From Ureibacillus acetophenoni (lineage in GTDB: Bacteria > Bacillota > Bacilli > Bacillales_A > Planococcaceae): a DNA stretch of 64,000 nt. The notes below the pieces were generated by a model that saw only the letters and a program-made list of their open reading frames with translations, ran no database searches and was not told the DNA's origin. Location of the stretch: the NCBI RefSeq assembly GCF_900220965.1, contig NZ_OBQC01000002.1, positions 62,001-126,000 of the forward strand, read 5' to 3'. Numbering within the stretch: position 1 is the stretch's first letter; every line of letters starts with the position of its first letter. Shown here in pieces: positions 56,484 to 60,722 of this stretch. Both the position numbers and the translations under genes were made by a program.

Positions 56484-56525
56484 AAAAAAACAGTGCTTTT
56501 GCCATAGACAATGTCGCACTGTTTC
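56484..56525 (-). terminator. Terminator of the spoIIIA cluster
   Basis: Arms AAACAGTGC and GCACTGTTT followed by T7 on the minus strand, just after spoIIIAH. Confidence 0.85.
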
Positions 56526-56561: not shown

Positions 56562-57107
56562 TCAATAGTAACTTGATTGAAAACCAACTGTTACGTTTGT
56601 GATATTCATATCTTCAACTTCTTTTCTAACTGTATAAATAATATCATTAGCCTGTTTTGTTGATAGTTCGTCTGATAGTACTTGTACTTGTACTTTGTCC
56701 TCTTCCACTCTTACAAACGCATCAGAATAGCCAAGTGATTTGATTAGCATCTCAAGCATTGCTTCAGAAGACTCTTGTTTAATAAGTTGATTCATTTGAT
56801 TGAATGCTTCATTTTTCTCTTCATTTGTAAATTCGTTCGATGCAATTTTATTTGTTAATTGAGTACGTATTTGACTACGCTCATTATCAACTTGAATTCT
56901 TAAATCATCGAATAAATAACTTTCCGTAGAAGTAGAAGTATTTGTTAATTGATCTACACCCGTTAAAGTTGTTTGTTCAAGTGGGTCGTCCGTGAAGACA
57001 GCCGATAAATTCACATCGCGATTACCTTCAAATAGGTAGTAAACTGAAATGACAGCCGCTAAGCTAAATAAAGTTAATAGCCATACTGTTCGTCTTTTTA
57101 CTTTCAT
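56562..57107 (-). CDS. spoIIIAH: Stage III sporulation protein AH
   Basis: Mother-cell membrane protein whose outer domain meets forespore SpoIIQ to form the feeding channel. One N-terminal helix (RRTVWLLTLFSLAAVISVYYLF) is followed by a short linker and the ring-building domain (about residues 65-181). The domain contains LRIQVDNERSQIRTQLTNKI and SLGYSDAFVRVEEDKVQVQVLS. At 181 residues it is shorter than the B. subtilis protein (about 218), mainly in the linker. It overlaps spoIIIAG by four bases. Confidence 0.9.
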   Translation of the reverse strand: MKVKRRTVWLLTLFSLAAVISVYYLFEGNRDVNLSAVFTDDPLEQTTLTGVDQLTNTSTSTESYLFDDLRIQVDNERSQIRTQLTNKIASNEFTNEEKNEAFNQMNQLIKQESSEAMLEMLIKSLGYSDAFVRVEEDKVQVQVLSDELSTKQANDIIYTVRKEVEDMNITNVTVGFQSSYY

Positions 57108-57553
57108 TCTACATCTCCTTTTCTCTCCATAGGTACAATCATGATTCTGTGAGTAGGCAATTGCATTACTCGACTAATGGTTTCCAATAGTTGACTTTTG
57201 ATGGAGGGGTTCGAAGCCCCTTCCGATACAATGAGCATACCTGATACTGTTTTTTGGGTTTTACCTGATGAAAAATATTCATCTAGCAAACTAGCTCCAT
57301 CTGGTACATGATCATCGTAATGTAAATACACTTTAACTTGTCCAACGCCTTGAATTTGCTTTAACGTTTGCTCTATTTTCCCCTCAAGTGTACTTGTATC
57401 ACTTTGCTCACTGTTTGGATCATTAAACGTTAAAGAAATGTACGCAATGAACGCAACTAGTGCTATTGGAATCAGTATTAGGTTAGTCTTTGTCCATTTT
57501 TTCTTTTCCACTTCACGTCCCTTTGCGGCCTCCTTTCTGTAACGTTTCAACAC
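57104..57553 (-). CDS. spoIIIAG: Stage III sporulation protein AG, short form
   Basis: Ring-forming component of the SpoIIIA channel. One membrane helix (about residues 24-43) precedes a ring-building domain with QIQGVGQVKVYLHYDD and, at the end, GMLIVSEGASNP...LLETISRVMQLPTHRIMIVPM. At 149 residues it is far shorter than the B. subtilis protein (about 229). The missing part lies between the two domain halves, where the beta-rich insertion normally is. The GTG at 57553 lacks a ribosome site; a second GTG at 57511 follows AAAGGGA and would give 135 residues. Confidence 0.85.
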   Translation of the reverse strand: MLKRYRKEAAKGREVEKKKWTKTNLILIPIALVAFIAYISLTFNDPNSEQSDTSTLEGKIEQTLKQIQGVGQVKVYLHYDDHVPDGASLLDEYFSSGKTQKTVSGMLIVSEGASNPSIKSQLLETISRVMQLPTHRIMIVPMERKGDVE

Positions 57554-57583
57554 ATTGTATGATGGTTGATGCTCGTCTATGCT

Positions 57584-57721
57584 TTATAGATTTAGGAAAT
57601 CTAACAAAGTTGTTAAAAAAATAATTAAGGTTGCTAGTTTAATATAAATAATGAGATCTGTTTCCTCGGCTAATAGTAGTAAACATTTGCCCACTAAAAT
57701 TATTACAACTAGTTTTATCAA
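57584..57721 (-). CDS. Possible minimal SpoIIIAF, 45-residue membrane peptide
   Basis: A TTG at 57721 overlaps the spoIIIAE stop (TTGA) and follows GGGGTGG by about ten bases. It opens a 45-codon frame ending with TAA at 57584. The peptide has two hydrophobic stretches (about residues 3-18 and 22-44) split by EETD. In position and layout it corresponds to only the N-terminal membrane part of SpoIIIAF, about 200 residues in B. subtilis. It may be a reduced gene, a remnant, or chance; coupling to spoIIIAE favours a real ORF. Confidence 0.45.
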   Translation of the reverse strand: MIKLVVIILVGKCLLLLAEETDLIIYIKLATLIIFLTTLLDFLNL

Positions 57722-58629
57722 AACGTTTTACCCACCCCTAGTTGAGTCATAACCATTAGAATTAGCCAAATGAAAACAAATGCGATTCCTAATAAAAACG
57801 CTACTGCACATAACACCAAAAGTGACTTTCCAACATCATCAACTAACCCACTGACAGTACTACTTGAAAACGGTTCGATGATAGCGGCTAGCAGCTTAAA
57901 TGTCATCGCATGTATTAATAATTTCCCGGCTGGATAAAAGGCAGCTACCCAAAATGCAGACATCGCACCTAGTCCCGCCACCGTCGTAGCCGTTGATTGA
58001 TATTTATTGAAGATTGAAAAGCCTTGTACAATTAAAGATCCAACGATGGGAATAGTCTGTTCAATAACTTTCTTCACTGGATCTGCAATCGCTTTATCGA
58101 TTGTAAAAAAGGCAACACCCGTGAATGATAAAATCGTCATGATTGCAATTACTGTTGCTGTAATAATCGTCATTACTGAACCTCTTATTAAATCTGAGGC
58201 TTTTCCAAAAGACATTTCTCCGATAAACCGTGTACAAAAATCAAAAATTAATGCAATTGTTACAGCAGGAATCAAAATTCTCTCACATAGCAAAATGAGT
58301 AGTTCAAATATAAAGAATATGATTGGACTCCAAGCGATAAAAGAAAAAACAGAATTTAAAATTACGAGTAGTGACATAATGATTGGGTACAATGCTAAGA
58401 AGAAATTAGAAAATATTCCTGCTAATTGTGCCATTAATGAAAATGCATCCATTACAGTTTGTCCCAAAGCTAAGACTAGAACGACGATAAATAACGTATC
58501 ACTCCACTTTTTAAACTTTGGAACATAGGCTTCAATTGCTAAAAATAGGACGGTATACGTGATGATTAACAAGATAGATTGTCCTGCGATCTTCAGCGGA
58601 TCCAAGAAAATATTTAGTATTTCATTCAT
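57718..58629 (-). CDS. spoIIIAE: Stage III sporulation protein AE, N-terminally short
   Basis: Polytopic membrane protein of the SpoIIIA channel with seven or eight helices. The 303 residues align with the C-terminal three quarters of the usual protein of about 400. The signal-peptide-like and extracytoplasmic N-terminus (roughly 80-90 residues) is absent. The ATG follows AAGGGGC and lies about 12 bases after spoIIIAD, so truncation by a wrong start is unlikely. The C-terminal half keeps the family pattern FITGNFIP-like TIPIVGSLIVQGF and the FYPAGKLLIHAMTFKLLAAIIEPF region. Confidence 0.85.
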   Translation of the reverse strand: MNEILNIFLDPLKIAGQSILLIITYTVLFLAIEAYVPKFKKWSDTLFIVVLVLALGQTVMDAFSLMAQLAGIFSNFFLALYPIIMSLLVILNSVFSFIAWSPIIFFIFELLILLCERILIPAVTIALIFDFCTRFIGEMSFGKASDLIRGSVMTIITATVIAIMTILSFTGVAFFTIDKAIADPVKKVIEQTIPIVGSLIVQGFSIFNKYQSTATTVAGLGAMSAFWVAAFYPAGKLLIHAMTFKLLAAIIEPFSSSTVSGLVDDVGKSLLVLCAVAFLLGIAFVFIWLILMVMTQLGVGKTF

Positions 58630-58641
58630 TGATCAAGCCCC

Positions 58642-59019
58642 TTATTGAAGCTTTTCTAATATTGAGGAAAACTTTGATAAAACTGTTGCAAATTCGGTTA
58701 GCCAATAAGTTAACAAAACGATTCTTACAGCAATCATGACTAATTCTCCAATGGATTCGTATTCCTGTTCTTCAAAAACTGAATGAATAAGAGACCCAAG
58801 TTGGTAGAATAATGCCGAATAGATTAGTTGAGCAACATATGGTACCGAGTGTACATAAGAAAGGAGCTTTTCTAAAAATGGAATCACAAGCATCGACAAA
58901 AGGAAATGTAGTAGTATGAAGAAAAATATGATTGCTATTAGAGTGTGTAGTTTTTGGAATGAATCTCTTATCAATAATAAGATTAAAAGTAAGATTACGG
59001 CATAAAAAATAAATATCAT
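58642..59019 (-). CDS. spoIIIAD: Stage III sporulation protein AD
   Basis: Small membrane protein, 125 residues, with about four helices, in the expected position between spoIIIAC and spoIIIAE. The C-terminal region with YESIGELVMIAVRIVLLTYWLTEFATVLSKFSSIL is the family-like part. Sequence similarity to B. subtilis SpoIIIAD looks low by eye, and the assignment rests partly on gene order and length. Confidence 0.8.
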   Translation of the reverse strand: MIFIFYAVILLLILLLIRDSFQKLHTLIAIIFFFILLHFLLSMLVIPFLEKLLSYVHSVPYVAQLIYSALFYQLGSLIHSVFEEQEYESIGELVMIAVRIVLLTYWLTEFATVLSKFSSILEKLQ

Positions 59020-59026
59020 AAGCTAC

Positions 59027-59233
59027 CTAATTTAAATTCAGCCATTGGAAGAATACTAAGATGTCTCCAAAAAATAGCCGTAAGAATCTTAAAAGTTCTG
59101 CAGTTAAATACAAATATGCAATAAAATATAAGAAAAATGAAAATTCCTTTTTGCCGAATTGCTCTAATAAGACATGAAGTAGAGCTAGAATCAACCCTAC
59201 CCCAGCTACTCGCAAAACGTCCTGTAACTCCAT
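59027..59233 (-). CDS. spoIIIAC: Stage III sporulation protein AC
   Basis: A 68-residue protein, the usual SpoIIIAC length, with two membrane helices and the family segment VLRVAGVGLILALLHVLLEQFGKKEF. The ATG at 59233 follows GAGGAGG. The frame remains open upstream to 59356 and could add about 41 residues with another hydrophobic helix and a basic TRRRRD end. It is the first recognisable gene of the cluster; spoIIIAA and spoIIIAB are not upstream. Confidence 0.88.
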   Translation of the reverse strand: MELQDVLRVAGVGLILALLHVLLEQFGKKEFSFFLYFIAYLYLTAELLRFLRLFFGDILVFFQWLNLN

Positions 59234-59382
59234 ATCTCGACGCCTCCTCGTGTAACGCAGTATATGAGCTTGTATCATTAAATAGACCAGCTCTAGAAAG
59301 AAAAATGGGACAACCATAATTGCAATCTTACGCTTATAAAATATTACCTTCATCAAAACACATTATATTTACATGCCTAAAT

Positions 59383-59470: not shown

Positions 59471-60013
59471 TTATTGTGCAACGCTTGTTTTAACATTTCC
59501 TTTTCCATTACCATTGTTATTTTTAGGTTCTTCAAACAGTGACTTTTTTAAGAAAGGAATTACAAATGGATCTAAACCAAATTTCCCTGCATTTGAACCA
59601 GCAAATAGAATCATTAAGCCAATTAATATATCAATAGGATTATGAGAGATTGCTCCAGCCATTAAGAAAGAGAAATTCATTATGATACCAAAGAATGCTG
59701 CCGTAGTTGTTAGACATCCAAGTATTAACCCGATACCAACTAAAAACTCTCCCCACGGTACTAAAATATTAAAGATTTCAACATTTGGTAACGCCACATT
59801 TTCTAAAAATGAATGATATAATCCAAACACATTCGAACCATCTGGGCCTTTTACCGGATTTTGAACGGCATTATTTAAGAACCCACTTGCATCAAATTGT
59901 CCGCCAGTTATTTTACCCCAACCAGCAATCATAAAGTTATACCCTAAATATATACGTAACAGCATCATAATTCCTGCTGCAATATTGTTATTTCTTAACC
60001 AGTTGTTAATCAT
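59471..60013 (-). CDS. DoxX-family membrane protein, copy A
   Basis: Four-helix membrane protein of 180 residues. The family start RIYLGYNFMIAGWGKITGG and the later LVPWGEFLVGIGLILG and AGAISHNPIDILIGL are plain. DoxX relatives take part in thiosulfate oxidation or redox-stress complexes, but no firm function is known for this Bacillales group. It is about 85 percent identical by eye to the neighbouring copy over the first 155 residues; the C-termini differ (a Asn/Gly/Lys-rich tail here). Both end in SVAQ. Confidence 0.88.
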   Translation of the reverse strand: MINNWLRNNNIAAGIMMLLRIYLGYNFMIAGWGKITGGQFDASGFLNNAVQNPVKGPDGSNVFGLYHSFLENVALPNVEIFNILVPWGEFLVGIGLILGCLTTTAAFFGIIMNFSFLMAGAISHNPIDILIGLMILFAGSNAGKFGLDPFVIPFLKKSLFEEPKNNNGNGKGNVKTSVAQ

Positions 60014-60144
60014 GTTAATCTCTCCTTGTTGTTTGTTTGTAAGGATATAGTAACATGTTATACAACAGAATAATACCTGTTATATGACAGTTCAAATTTT
60101 AGTAATATTTTTGTGAATAATTTATGAAATTATGACTTTCGAAT

Positions 60145-60185
60145 AAAAAATTACTCAAACTTCATAGAAATTTGAGTAATTTTTA
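60145..60185 (-). terminator. Terminator of the upstream doxX copy
   Basis: Arms AAAAATTACTCAAA and TTTGAGTAATTTTT, the counterpart of the hairpin at 59383-59422. Confidence 0.85.
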
Positions 60186-60194
60186 AATAATATT

Positions 60195-60722
60195 TTATTG
60201 TGCGACACTCGGTTTAACTTTATTTTCTTTATATTCGTTTTTGTGTAGCATTTTTCTAACGTATGGAAGGACAAAGTAATCTAAACCAATTTTACCAGCA
60301 TTTGCACCAGCAAATAAGATAAGTAAGCCGATTAGAATATCCGTTGGATTATGTGAGATCGCTCCAGCCATTAAGAATGAGAAGTTCATAATTACACCAA
60401 AGAAAGCAGCGGCAGTTGTAAGACATCCTAAAATTAACCCTAGTCCAACTAAAAATTCTCCCCAAGGTACCAAAATGTTAAATAGGTCGACATTTGGTAA
60501 TGCAACATTTTCTAAGAATATATTATATAAACCAAATACACTAGAGCCATCCGGACCCTTTACTGGATTTTGAACTGCATTATTCAAGAATCCACTCGCA
60601 TCAAATTGTCCACCAGTGATTTTACCCCAACCAGCGACCATAAAGTTATACCCTAAATATATACGTAGCAGCATCATAACAGCTGCAGCAATATTATTAT
60701 TTCTCCACCATTTGTTAATCAT
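60195..60722 (-). CDS. DoxX-family membrane protein, copy B
   Basis: Tandem paralogue of the gene at 59471-60013, 175 residues, with the same RIYLGYNFMVAGWGKITGG and LVPWGEFLVGLGLILG core and a different C-terminal tail (a Lys/Glu-rich stretch). It has its own terminator, and both genes have an ATCTCTCCTTG-type sequence over their starts (AAGGAGAGAT on the coding strand). A recent gene duplication that took the terminator with it is likely. It lies between efp and the spoIIIA cluster. Confidence 0.88.
   Translation of the reverse strand: MINKWWRNNNIAAAVMMLLRIYLGYNFMVAGWGKITGGQFDASGFLNNAVQNPVKGPDGSSVFGLYNIFLENVALPNVDLFNILVPWGEFLVGLGLILGCLTTAAAFFGVIMNFSFLMAGAISHNPTDILIGLLILFAGANAGKIGLDYFVLPYVRKMLHKNEYKENKVKPSVAQ

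Follow-up and report, generated by a model that had tools for sequence, protein, structure and literature searches.

A domain-stripped spoIIIA operon with a miniature SpoIIIAF in Ureibacillus acetophenoni and its family

The spoIIIA operon described here lies on the minus strand of a stretch of 64,000 nucleotides (nt) from Ureibacillus acetophenoni (contig NZ_OBQC01000002.1, positions 62,001 to 126,000), which we call the window; its genes and proteins are abbreviated as AA to AH. The operon is probably an ancestral, selected and minimal form of the SpoIIIA-SpoIIQ apparatus, which would work without an ATPase of its own. It appears to be a complete, domain-stripped operon inherited from the ancestor of the GTDB family Planococcaceae/Caryophanaceae. 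The membrane core would have been retained (AC and AD, the part of AE in the membrane and a transmembrane hairpin of AF), together with AH, the forespore partner SpoIIQ and an AG cut back to little more than its ring-building domain. The discarded parts would be AA (the ATPase) and its partner AB, the front of AE (signal peptide and N-terminal domain), the ring domain of AF and most of the AG insert.

At the gene level, earlier publications already report that AA, AB and AF are lost in this clade. AA, AB, AD and AF were reported missing in L. sphaericus C3-41 together with gerM, spoIIB and spoIIM, and this genome was set aside as unreliable (Galperin 2012, PMC3533761). A later survey found AA, AB and AF missing in all members of the Planococcaceae/Lysinibacillus group, Jeotgalibacillus apart, and AD missing in five species; the mechanism was left open, and one sentence of the discussion names AG as absent too (PLoS One 2021, PMC7924749). 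In the accessible part of the open-licence literature, we found neither a shortened AF nor a loss of domains from AG or AE described for the family; both may be published elsewhere. As far as could be checked, the miniature AF (mini-AF) is new, and so is the stripping of AE, AF and AG together. The original prediction for this locus described a cluster beginning at AC, with no AA or AB between efp and AC. This order was confirmed; the stripped AG and AE, the family-wide extent of the loss and its earlier publication had been overlooked.

Genome-wide searches were run on the 3.98-Mb assembly of the host (39 contigs, rated 100% complete). Among the matches listed, the AE of the window is closest to that of Ureibacillus manganicus DSM 26584 (98% identity) and 95-74% identical to ten other Ureibacillus/Lysinibacillus records; because of these identities, the host is placed in Ureibacillus in the GTDB sense. 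The family sample comprised 200 genomes of Planococcaceae/Caryophanaceae (genomes, loci and genera are numbered with G, L and g). B. subtilis served as a named control and was matched in the genome searches with PF09548, TIGR02858 and PF19568. AE was present in 151 of the 200 genomes, and 151 family loci were drawn from 150 of these; G126 was left out. G053 contributed two loci (L091 and L092) resembling two genera and is probably a mixed bin. All genomes listed by an order-level outgroup search belonged to the family. At the level of the class, 163 of 250 genomes had an AF match, and 20 operons from these served as the outgroup. The hhalign sets were selected from these 20 loci by eye (AA 14, AB 13, AC 11, AD 12, AE 12, AF 17, AG 15, AH 11), four AF sequences being trimmed to the conserved start. 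Of the first 91 family loci, 56 are included in the family alignment A1 and 52 in A2.

Profiles made from the outgroup operons recovered all eight spoIIIA genes from each of the 20 outgroup loci. Applied to 150 family loci (window excluded), the same profiles found AC, AE, AG and AH 150 times each, AD 16 times, and AA, AB and AF not once. PF09548 (AB) and PF19568 (AA) had no match in the whole host genome; across the 200 family genomes, PF19568 again gave none, and PF09548 none over its cut-off. At the sensitivity of these profiles, the AA ATPase and AB of the canonical channel are absent, from the host genome as well as from the related Planococcaceae sampled, and the intact copies elsewhere that would have contradicted the original prediction were not found. 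Candidates for hidden copies were rejected. Three weak AB matches in the family genomes lay under the cut-off, in frames of 340-2955 amino acids. The sole TIGR02858 match in the host genome reached 24.9 bits (cut-off 281.3 bits) in an open reading frame (ORF) resembling Rho, which we take to be the transcription factor Rho downstream of a glpX-like ORF. The distance from efp to AC is 103-2692 nt (median 282, 83 family loci), and in 73 of the 83 it is below 1.4 kilobases, which is about the space of AA plus AB in the outgroups.

The channel might still be driven by ATP if it had borrowed an ATPase, be it ComGA, PilB/PilT, a Tad ATPase or a member of another family. The host genome does contain four proteins over the cut-off of PF00437 (T2SSE family); from their length and neighbours, we take them to be PilB-like and PilT-like (both on C11), ComGA-like (in a comG-like operon) and Tad/CpaF-like. 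At least one T2SSE-family match occurs in 198 of the 200 family genomes. Exactly one was found in 16 of the 151 genomes with AE, and also in two genomes without AE. These single matches, with E values of 2e-87 to 1.6e-78, resemble the ComGA-like protein of the host (1.2e-86) and are probably ComGA, as judged by E value. Therefore, no second ATPase of the type II secretion system kind tracks the operon, and no dedicated replacement of AA is evident among the T2SSE-family ATPases. AB, the expected docking partner, is gone as well. The earlier suggestion that the channel may borrow another ATPase was thus not supported, and we consider it unlikely.

The membrane core of the canonical channel (AC, AD and AE) is present. 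The family profile of AC matches outgroup AC with an hhalign probability of 98.1. AD has no Pfam or NCBIfam match; its family profile aligns with outgroup AD over 117 columns with a probability of 52.9, the best among seven SpoIIIA profiles, and tblastn detected AD at 75 of 91 loci. Such weak recognition would explain why surveys called AD missing in some species. AE is shortened at its front. The window protein aligns with TIGR02829 from profile position 125 onward only (63.8 bits, under the cut-off). The stretch from the preceding stop codon to a conserved point holds no more than 0-88 residues (median 31) in 91 family loci, compared with 107-141 in 12 outgroups, and the signal peptide and N-terminal domain of the canonical AE were not found.

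AG retains its ring domain with a shortened insert. In a phmmer comparison with the B. subtilis ring 5wc3, 21 residues separate the two matched blocks versus 58 in 5wc3; the first block is weak alone (1.0 bit) and reaches 11.5 bits with the family profile. The aligned insert covers 13-31 residues (median 26) in 151 family loci versus 53-61 (median 60) in 15 outgroups. The AG ring is described as having a unique cylindrical beta-barrel (PMC8092281), and by its position the lost stretch would correspond to this barrel. An L..YF-like motif near window residue 94 replaces the long insert in 100 of 151 family loci and in 0 of 15 outgroups (alignment A1). The likelier AG start is the GTG at 57511 (135 amino acids) rather than that of the 149-residue version, because a stop codon precedes the matching GTG in the relative L055.

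AH is whole, its family profile matching 3uz0 and 3tuf at 1e-30, and both its ring-building domain and the SpoIIQ partner of the canonical channel are present. SpoIIQ was identified in the host genome by an M23 match, in the order spoIID-spoIIQ-spoIIID-mbl, where the names SpoIID, SpoIIID and Mbl are our assumption. This SpoIIQ is short (L149:1132-1812, 226 amino acids), and its LytM domain seems to lack what we presume to be the usual second HxH pair, reading HLF instead. ORFs which we take to be SpoIVFA/FB-like follow a minD-like ORF in the same genome.

Relative to B. subtilis, two genes and three domains have been lost or shrunk, and the cluster could be a decaying remnant, with spores forming without a channel that no longer matters. 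Codon-level selection argues against this. Ratios of nonsynonymous to synonymous substitution rates (dN/dS) were calculated with the Nei-Gojobori method for 26 loci (25 of genus g1 plus L091) from pooled unsaturated pairs, which are not independent and number 14 for AE and 32 for AH. The values were 0.053 for AC, 0.126 for AD, 0.034 for AE, 0.120 for mini-AF, 0.301 for AG and 0.142 for AH. This codon comparison shows purifying selection on all six genes (0.03-0.30). Moreover, AE frames of 262-363 codons are free of inner stops in the first 91 loci, and in the three AG/AH spans containing a stop, this stop lies outside the gene.

The operon also goes together with a sporulation marker. A SpoIVA match was found in 151 of 151 genomes with AE (150 over the cut-off, G099 partial). 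Among the 49 genomes without AE, 46 have no SpoIVA match and three have weak ones, all from genus g2; these counts treat genomes as independent although they are kin. Of 19 genera, 13 contain AE, and it is missing from all 46 genomes without SpoIVA. Some decay is seen within the family: of the four genomes sampled from genus g2, three (G001, G038 and G054) lack AE and have a weak SpoIVA, G020 keeps both, and sporulation is apparently being lost. For the operon itself, the selection on six genes and the constant company of SpoIVA make decay very improbable, and they support the original prediction of selection for a working, simpler channel. The window further encodes Spo0A (355.7 bits) and SpoIVB (239 bits, under the equivalog cut-off of 305). 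Some Ureibacillus species are described as endospore-formers (PMC6971209).

Directly after AE, the window contains a frame of 45 codons with two hydrophobic stretches flanking an acidic loop, and each of the 151 family loci read has a corresponding frame. Among the first 91, it was taken by a lenient rule as the most hydrophobic frame of 35-75 codons at that place (91 of 91 loci); with a stricter rule requiring a start codon, L086 was missed and the starts in g5 loci were unclear. The profile from this first set gave scores of at least 36.1 at 60 of 60 unseen loci, whereas 2797 other frames there scored at most 10.5, which is a fair test of the presence of mini-AF.

In hhalign, the mini-AF profile matches residues 1-48 of full-length AF from 17 outgroup loci with a probability of 94.5% and a score of 44.5. 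As controls, the AB, AC, AD, AE, AG and AH profiles score 11.2-16.1 against mini-AF, 100 column shuffles reach at most 17.9, and the reversed profile 12.6. At one column, every one of the 84 unique sequences has a basic residue (75 K, 9 R). The ratio of nonsynonymous to synonymous differences (pN/pS, 26 loci) is 0.187 in frame, compared with 0.615 and 4.1 for the same stretch in shifted frames; dN/dS for the window versus L056 alone is 0.249. PF09581 (SpoIIIAF) has no match in the host genome, and the genomes listed as matching include none of the family. In 151 loci, the frames stop 44-61 codons beyond the approximate position of the AE stop. In the window, the first possible AG start lies 30 nt past the mini-AF stop and the likely start (57511) 72 nt past it, and therefore no ring domain can follow there. 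The frame thus has the N-terminal transmembrane hairpin of SpoIIIAF between AE and AG, as judged by profile and hydropathy; the soluble ring-building domain is lacking, and the Pfam gathering score is not reached. By these comparisons, the 45-residue frame is the SpoIIIAF transmembrane hairpin minus its ring domain, and AF has not been lost. A new small membrane protein unrelated to SpoIIIAF and sitting in its place by chance is hardly credible, given a profile match that starts at AF residue 1 far over the shuffled, reversed and other SpoIIIA controls, the same position as AF and the basic residue retained in 84 of 84 sequences.

Several points weigh against the operon being a minimal apparatus without its own ATPase. 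That this very strain sporulates would follow from its gene content. AD is recognised weakly, as shown by the outgroup AD profile matching 16 of 150 family loci. The mini-AF frame is conserved without a clear ATG, GTG or TTG in several g5 loci (L006, L010-L012 and others), and L086 lacks any such start within the range tried. No single mini-AF sequence is significant against the AF profile (best E value 0.042), which would also explain why profile surveys called AF absent. An ATPase from another family could have replaced AA. In B. subtilis, sigma-G activity depends on the ATPase motifs of AA (PMC2703783), and deleting AA, AB, AE or AG singly brings sporulation down to 0.003-0.001% (PMC12720343). 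A version without an ATPase would therefore work by a truly different mechanism.

Compared with the eight-gene spoIIIA operon of B. subtilis, the operon of the window occupies the same site between efp and accB and keeps the order AC-AD-AE-AF-AG-AH, and it shares with the B. subtilis SpoIIIA-SpoIIQ system the ring-building domains of AG and AH, the SpoIIQ partner and a sigma-E-like promoter. In contrast, AA and AB are missing, the promoter directly precedes AC, and AE lacks the N-terminal domain, AF the ring domain and AG most of its insert. The two surveys describe similar reduced sets, with AA and AB absent in spore-formers of the Planococcaceae/Lysinibacillus group and the signature Spo0A-AC-AD-AE-AG-AH-SpoIIQ-DP in Sporosarcina (PMC3533761, PMC7924749). 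Unlike these sets, in which AF is reported absent and AD absent in some, the loci read here all have the AF hairpin and AG, AD is weakly recognised, and domain losses from AE and AG are seen. The ring-building motif of AG and AH is also common to FliF/SctJ of flagella and type III secretion (PMC8092281). B. subtilis AG shares a beta-strand collar with the FliF S-ring, and the family AG would have no room for this collar.

The features of the operon are listed in Table 1. On the minus strand, the gene order is pepP-efp-doxX-doxX-AC-AD-AE-AG-AH-accB-accC, with mini-AF between AE and AG; pepP, efp and accC are names that we assume. The original prediction had counted five genes (AC, AD, AE, AG and AH) and missed mini-AF, which makes six. 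It had also set the cluster edge at 59356, whereas AC begins at 59233 and the remaining in-frame stretch covers the promoter. A 41-residue N-terminal extension of AC (59234-59356) was rejected: the relatives printed share the start, the ribosome-binding site and the promoter, not the upstream frame. This in-frame stretch overlaps the promoter and could cause mis-annotation as a longer AC.

Table 1 Features of the spoIIIA operon in the window
Feature	Position	Strand	Remarks
sigma-E-like promoter	59259..59288	-	GGTCTATTT at 59288-59280, 13-nt spacer, CATATACT at 59266-59259
spoIIIAC	59027..59233	-	68 amino acids; ATG with AGGAGG upstream; PF06686 19.5 bits (cut-off 24, not reached)
spoIIIAD	58642..59019	-	125 amino acids; from profile comparison and position; without Pfam/NCBIfam match
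spoIIIAE	57718..58629	-	303 amino acids; PF09546 84.7 bits; without signal peptide and N-terminal domain
mini-spoIIIAF	57584..57721	-	45 amino acids, transmembrane hairpin; TTG start overlaps AE stop (TTGA)
spoIIIAG	57104..57553	-	at most 149 amino acids; TIGR02830 52.1 bits (under cut-off); short loop replaces most of insert
spoIIIAH	56562..57107	-	181 amino acids; PF12685 83.3 bits; ring-building domain kept
terminator-like inverted repeat	56484..56524	-	AAACAGTGC...GCACTGTTT plus T run; read from sequence

The sequence directly before AC fits a sigma-E-like promoter: CATATACT stands about 30 nt before AC, and GGTCTATTT 13 nt further up. Both elements agree with what we take to be the sigma-E consensus. 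Of 151 loci, 145 carry a CATA element 18-48 nt upstream of AC; in the first set, the element is present in 88 of 90 loci, compared with 9.7 on average and 18 at most over 200 mononucleotide shuffles (L078, with the motif missing, was left out of this count). The upper element often reads TCATATT in other genera. A scan for sigma-70 promoters returned 15 versus 25.4 in shuffles. The good terminator predicted after AH holds as far as a perfect 9-bp stem is concerned; its loop of 19 nt is long, and it is missing from the automatic list because the scan allows loops of 3-8 nt. Two similar DoxX-like genes (59471-60722 of the window) lie between efp and AC. A DoxX match near AC was found in 4 of 90 loci counted (the window, L048, L050 and L053), and the pair is a local insertion.

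How such an operon might work can be outlined from its parts. Sigma-E would transcribe it from the promoter directly before AC, and the products may still make a conduit between mother cell and forespore, with mini-AF packing as a membrane subunit with AE, AC and AD. This conduit would run by diffusion or by gradients from other transporters instead of a dedicated ATPase. We propose that the parts lost together form one dispensable module for powering and scaffolding. The full picture, a natural minimal and ATPase-independent conduit of AC, AD, the AE core and mini-AF with bare AG/AH rings on SpoIIQ, and with AA, AB, the AE N-terminal domain, the AF ring and the AG insert as a single co-lost module, is put forward tentatively, with rather less confidence than the minimal apparatus itself. 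If it is true, the co-lost parts cooperate in B. subtilis and can be dispensed with as a set.

According to a 2025 paper, it is still debated whether the SpoIIIA-SpoIIQ system acts as a scaffold, a feeding tube or a secretion machine driven by ATP, and a simple AH-SpoIIQ channel is doubted there (PMC12720343). A family that keeps a defined core under strong selection, minus the ATPase, AB and three soluble parts, indicates which components make up this core, and the reduced operon yields a testable prediction for B. subtilis. Mini-AF corrects the published statement that AF is absent from the family and shows that stripped-down subunits escape profile searches. A naturally selected minimal version of the mother cell-to-spore channel may thus be on view in a whole family.

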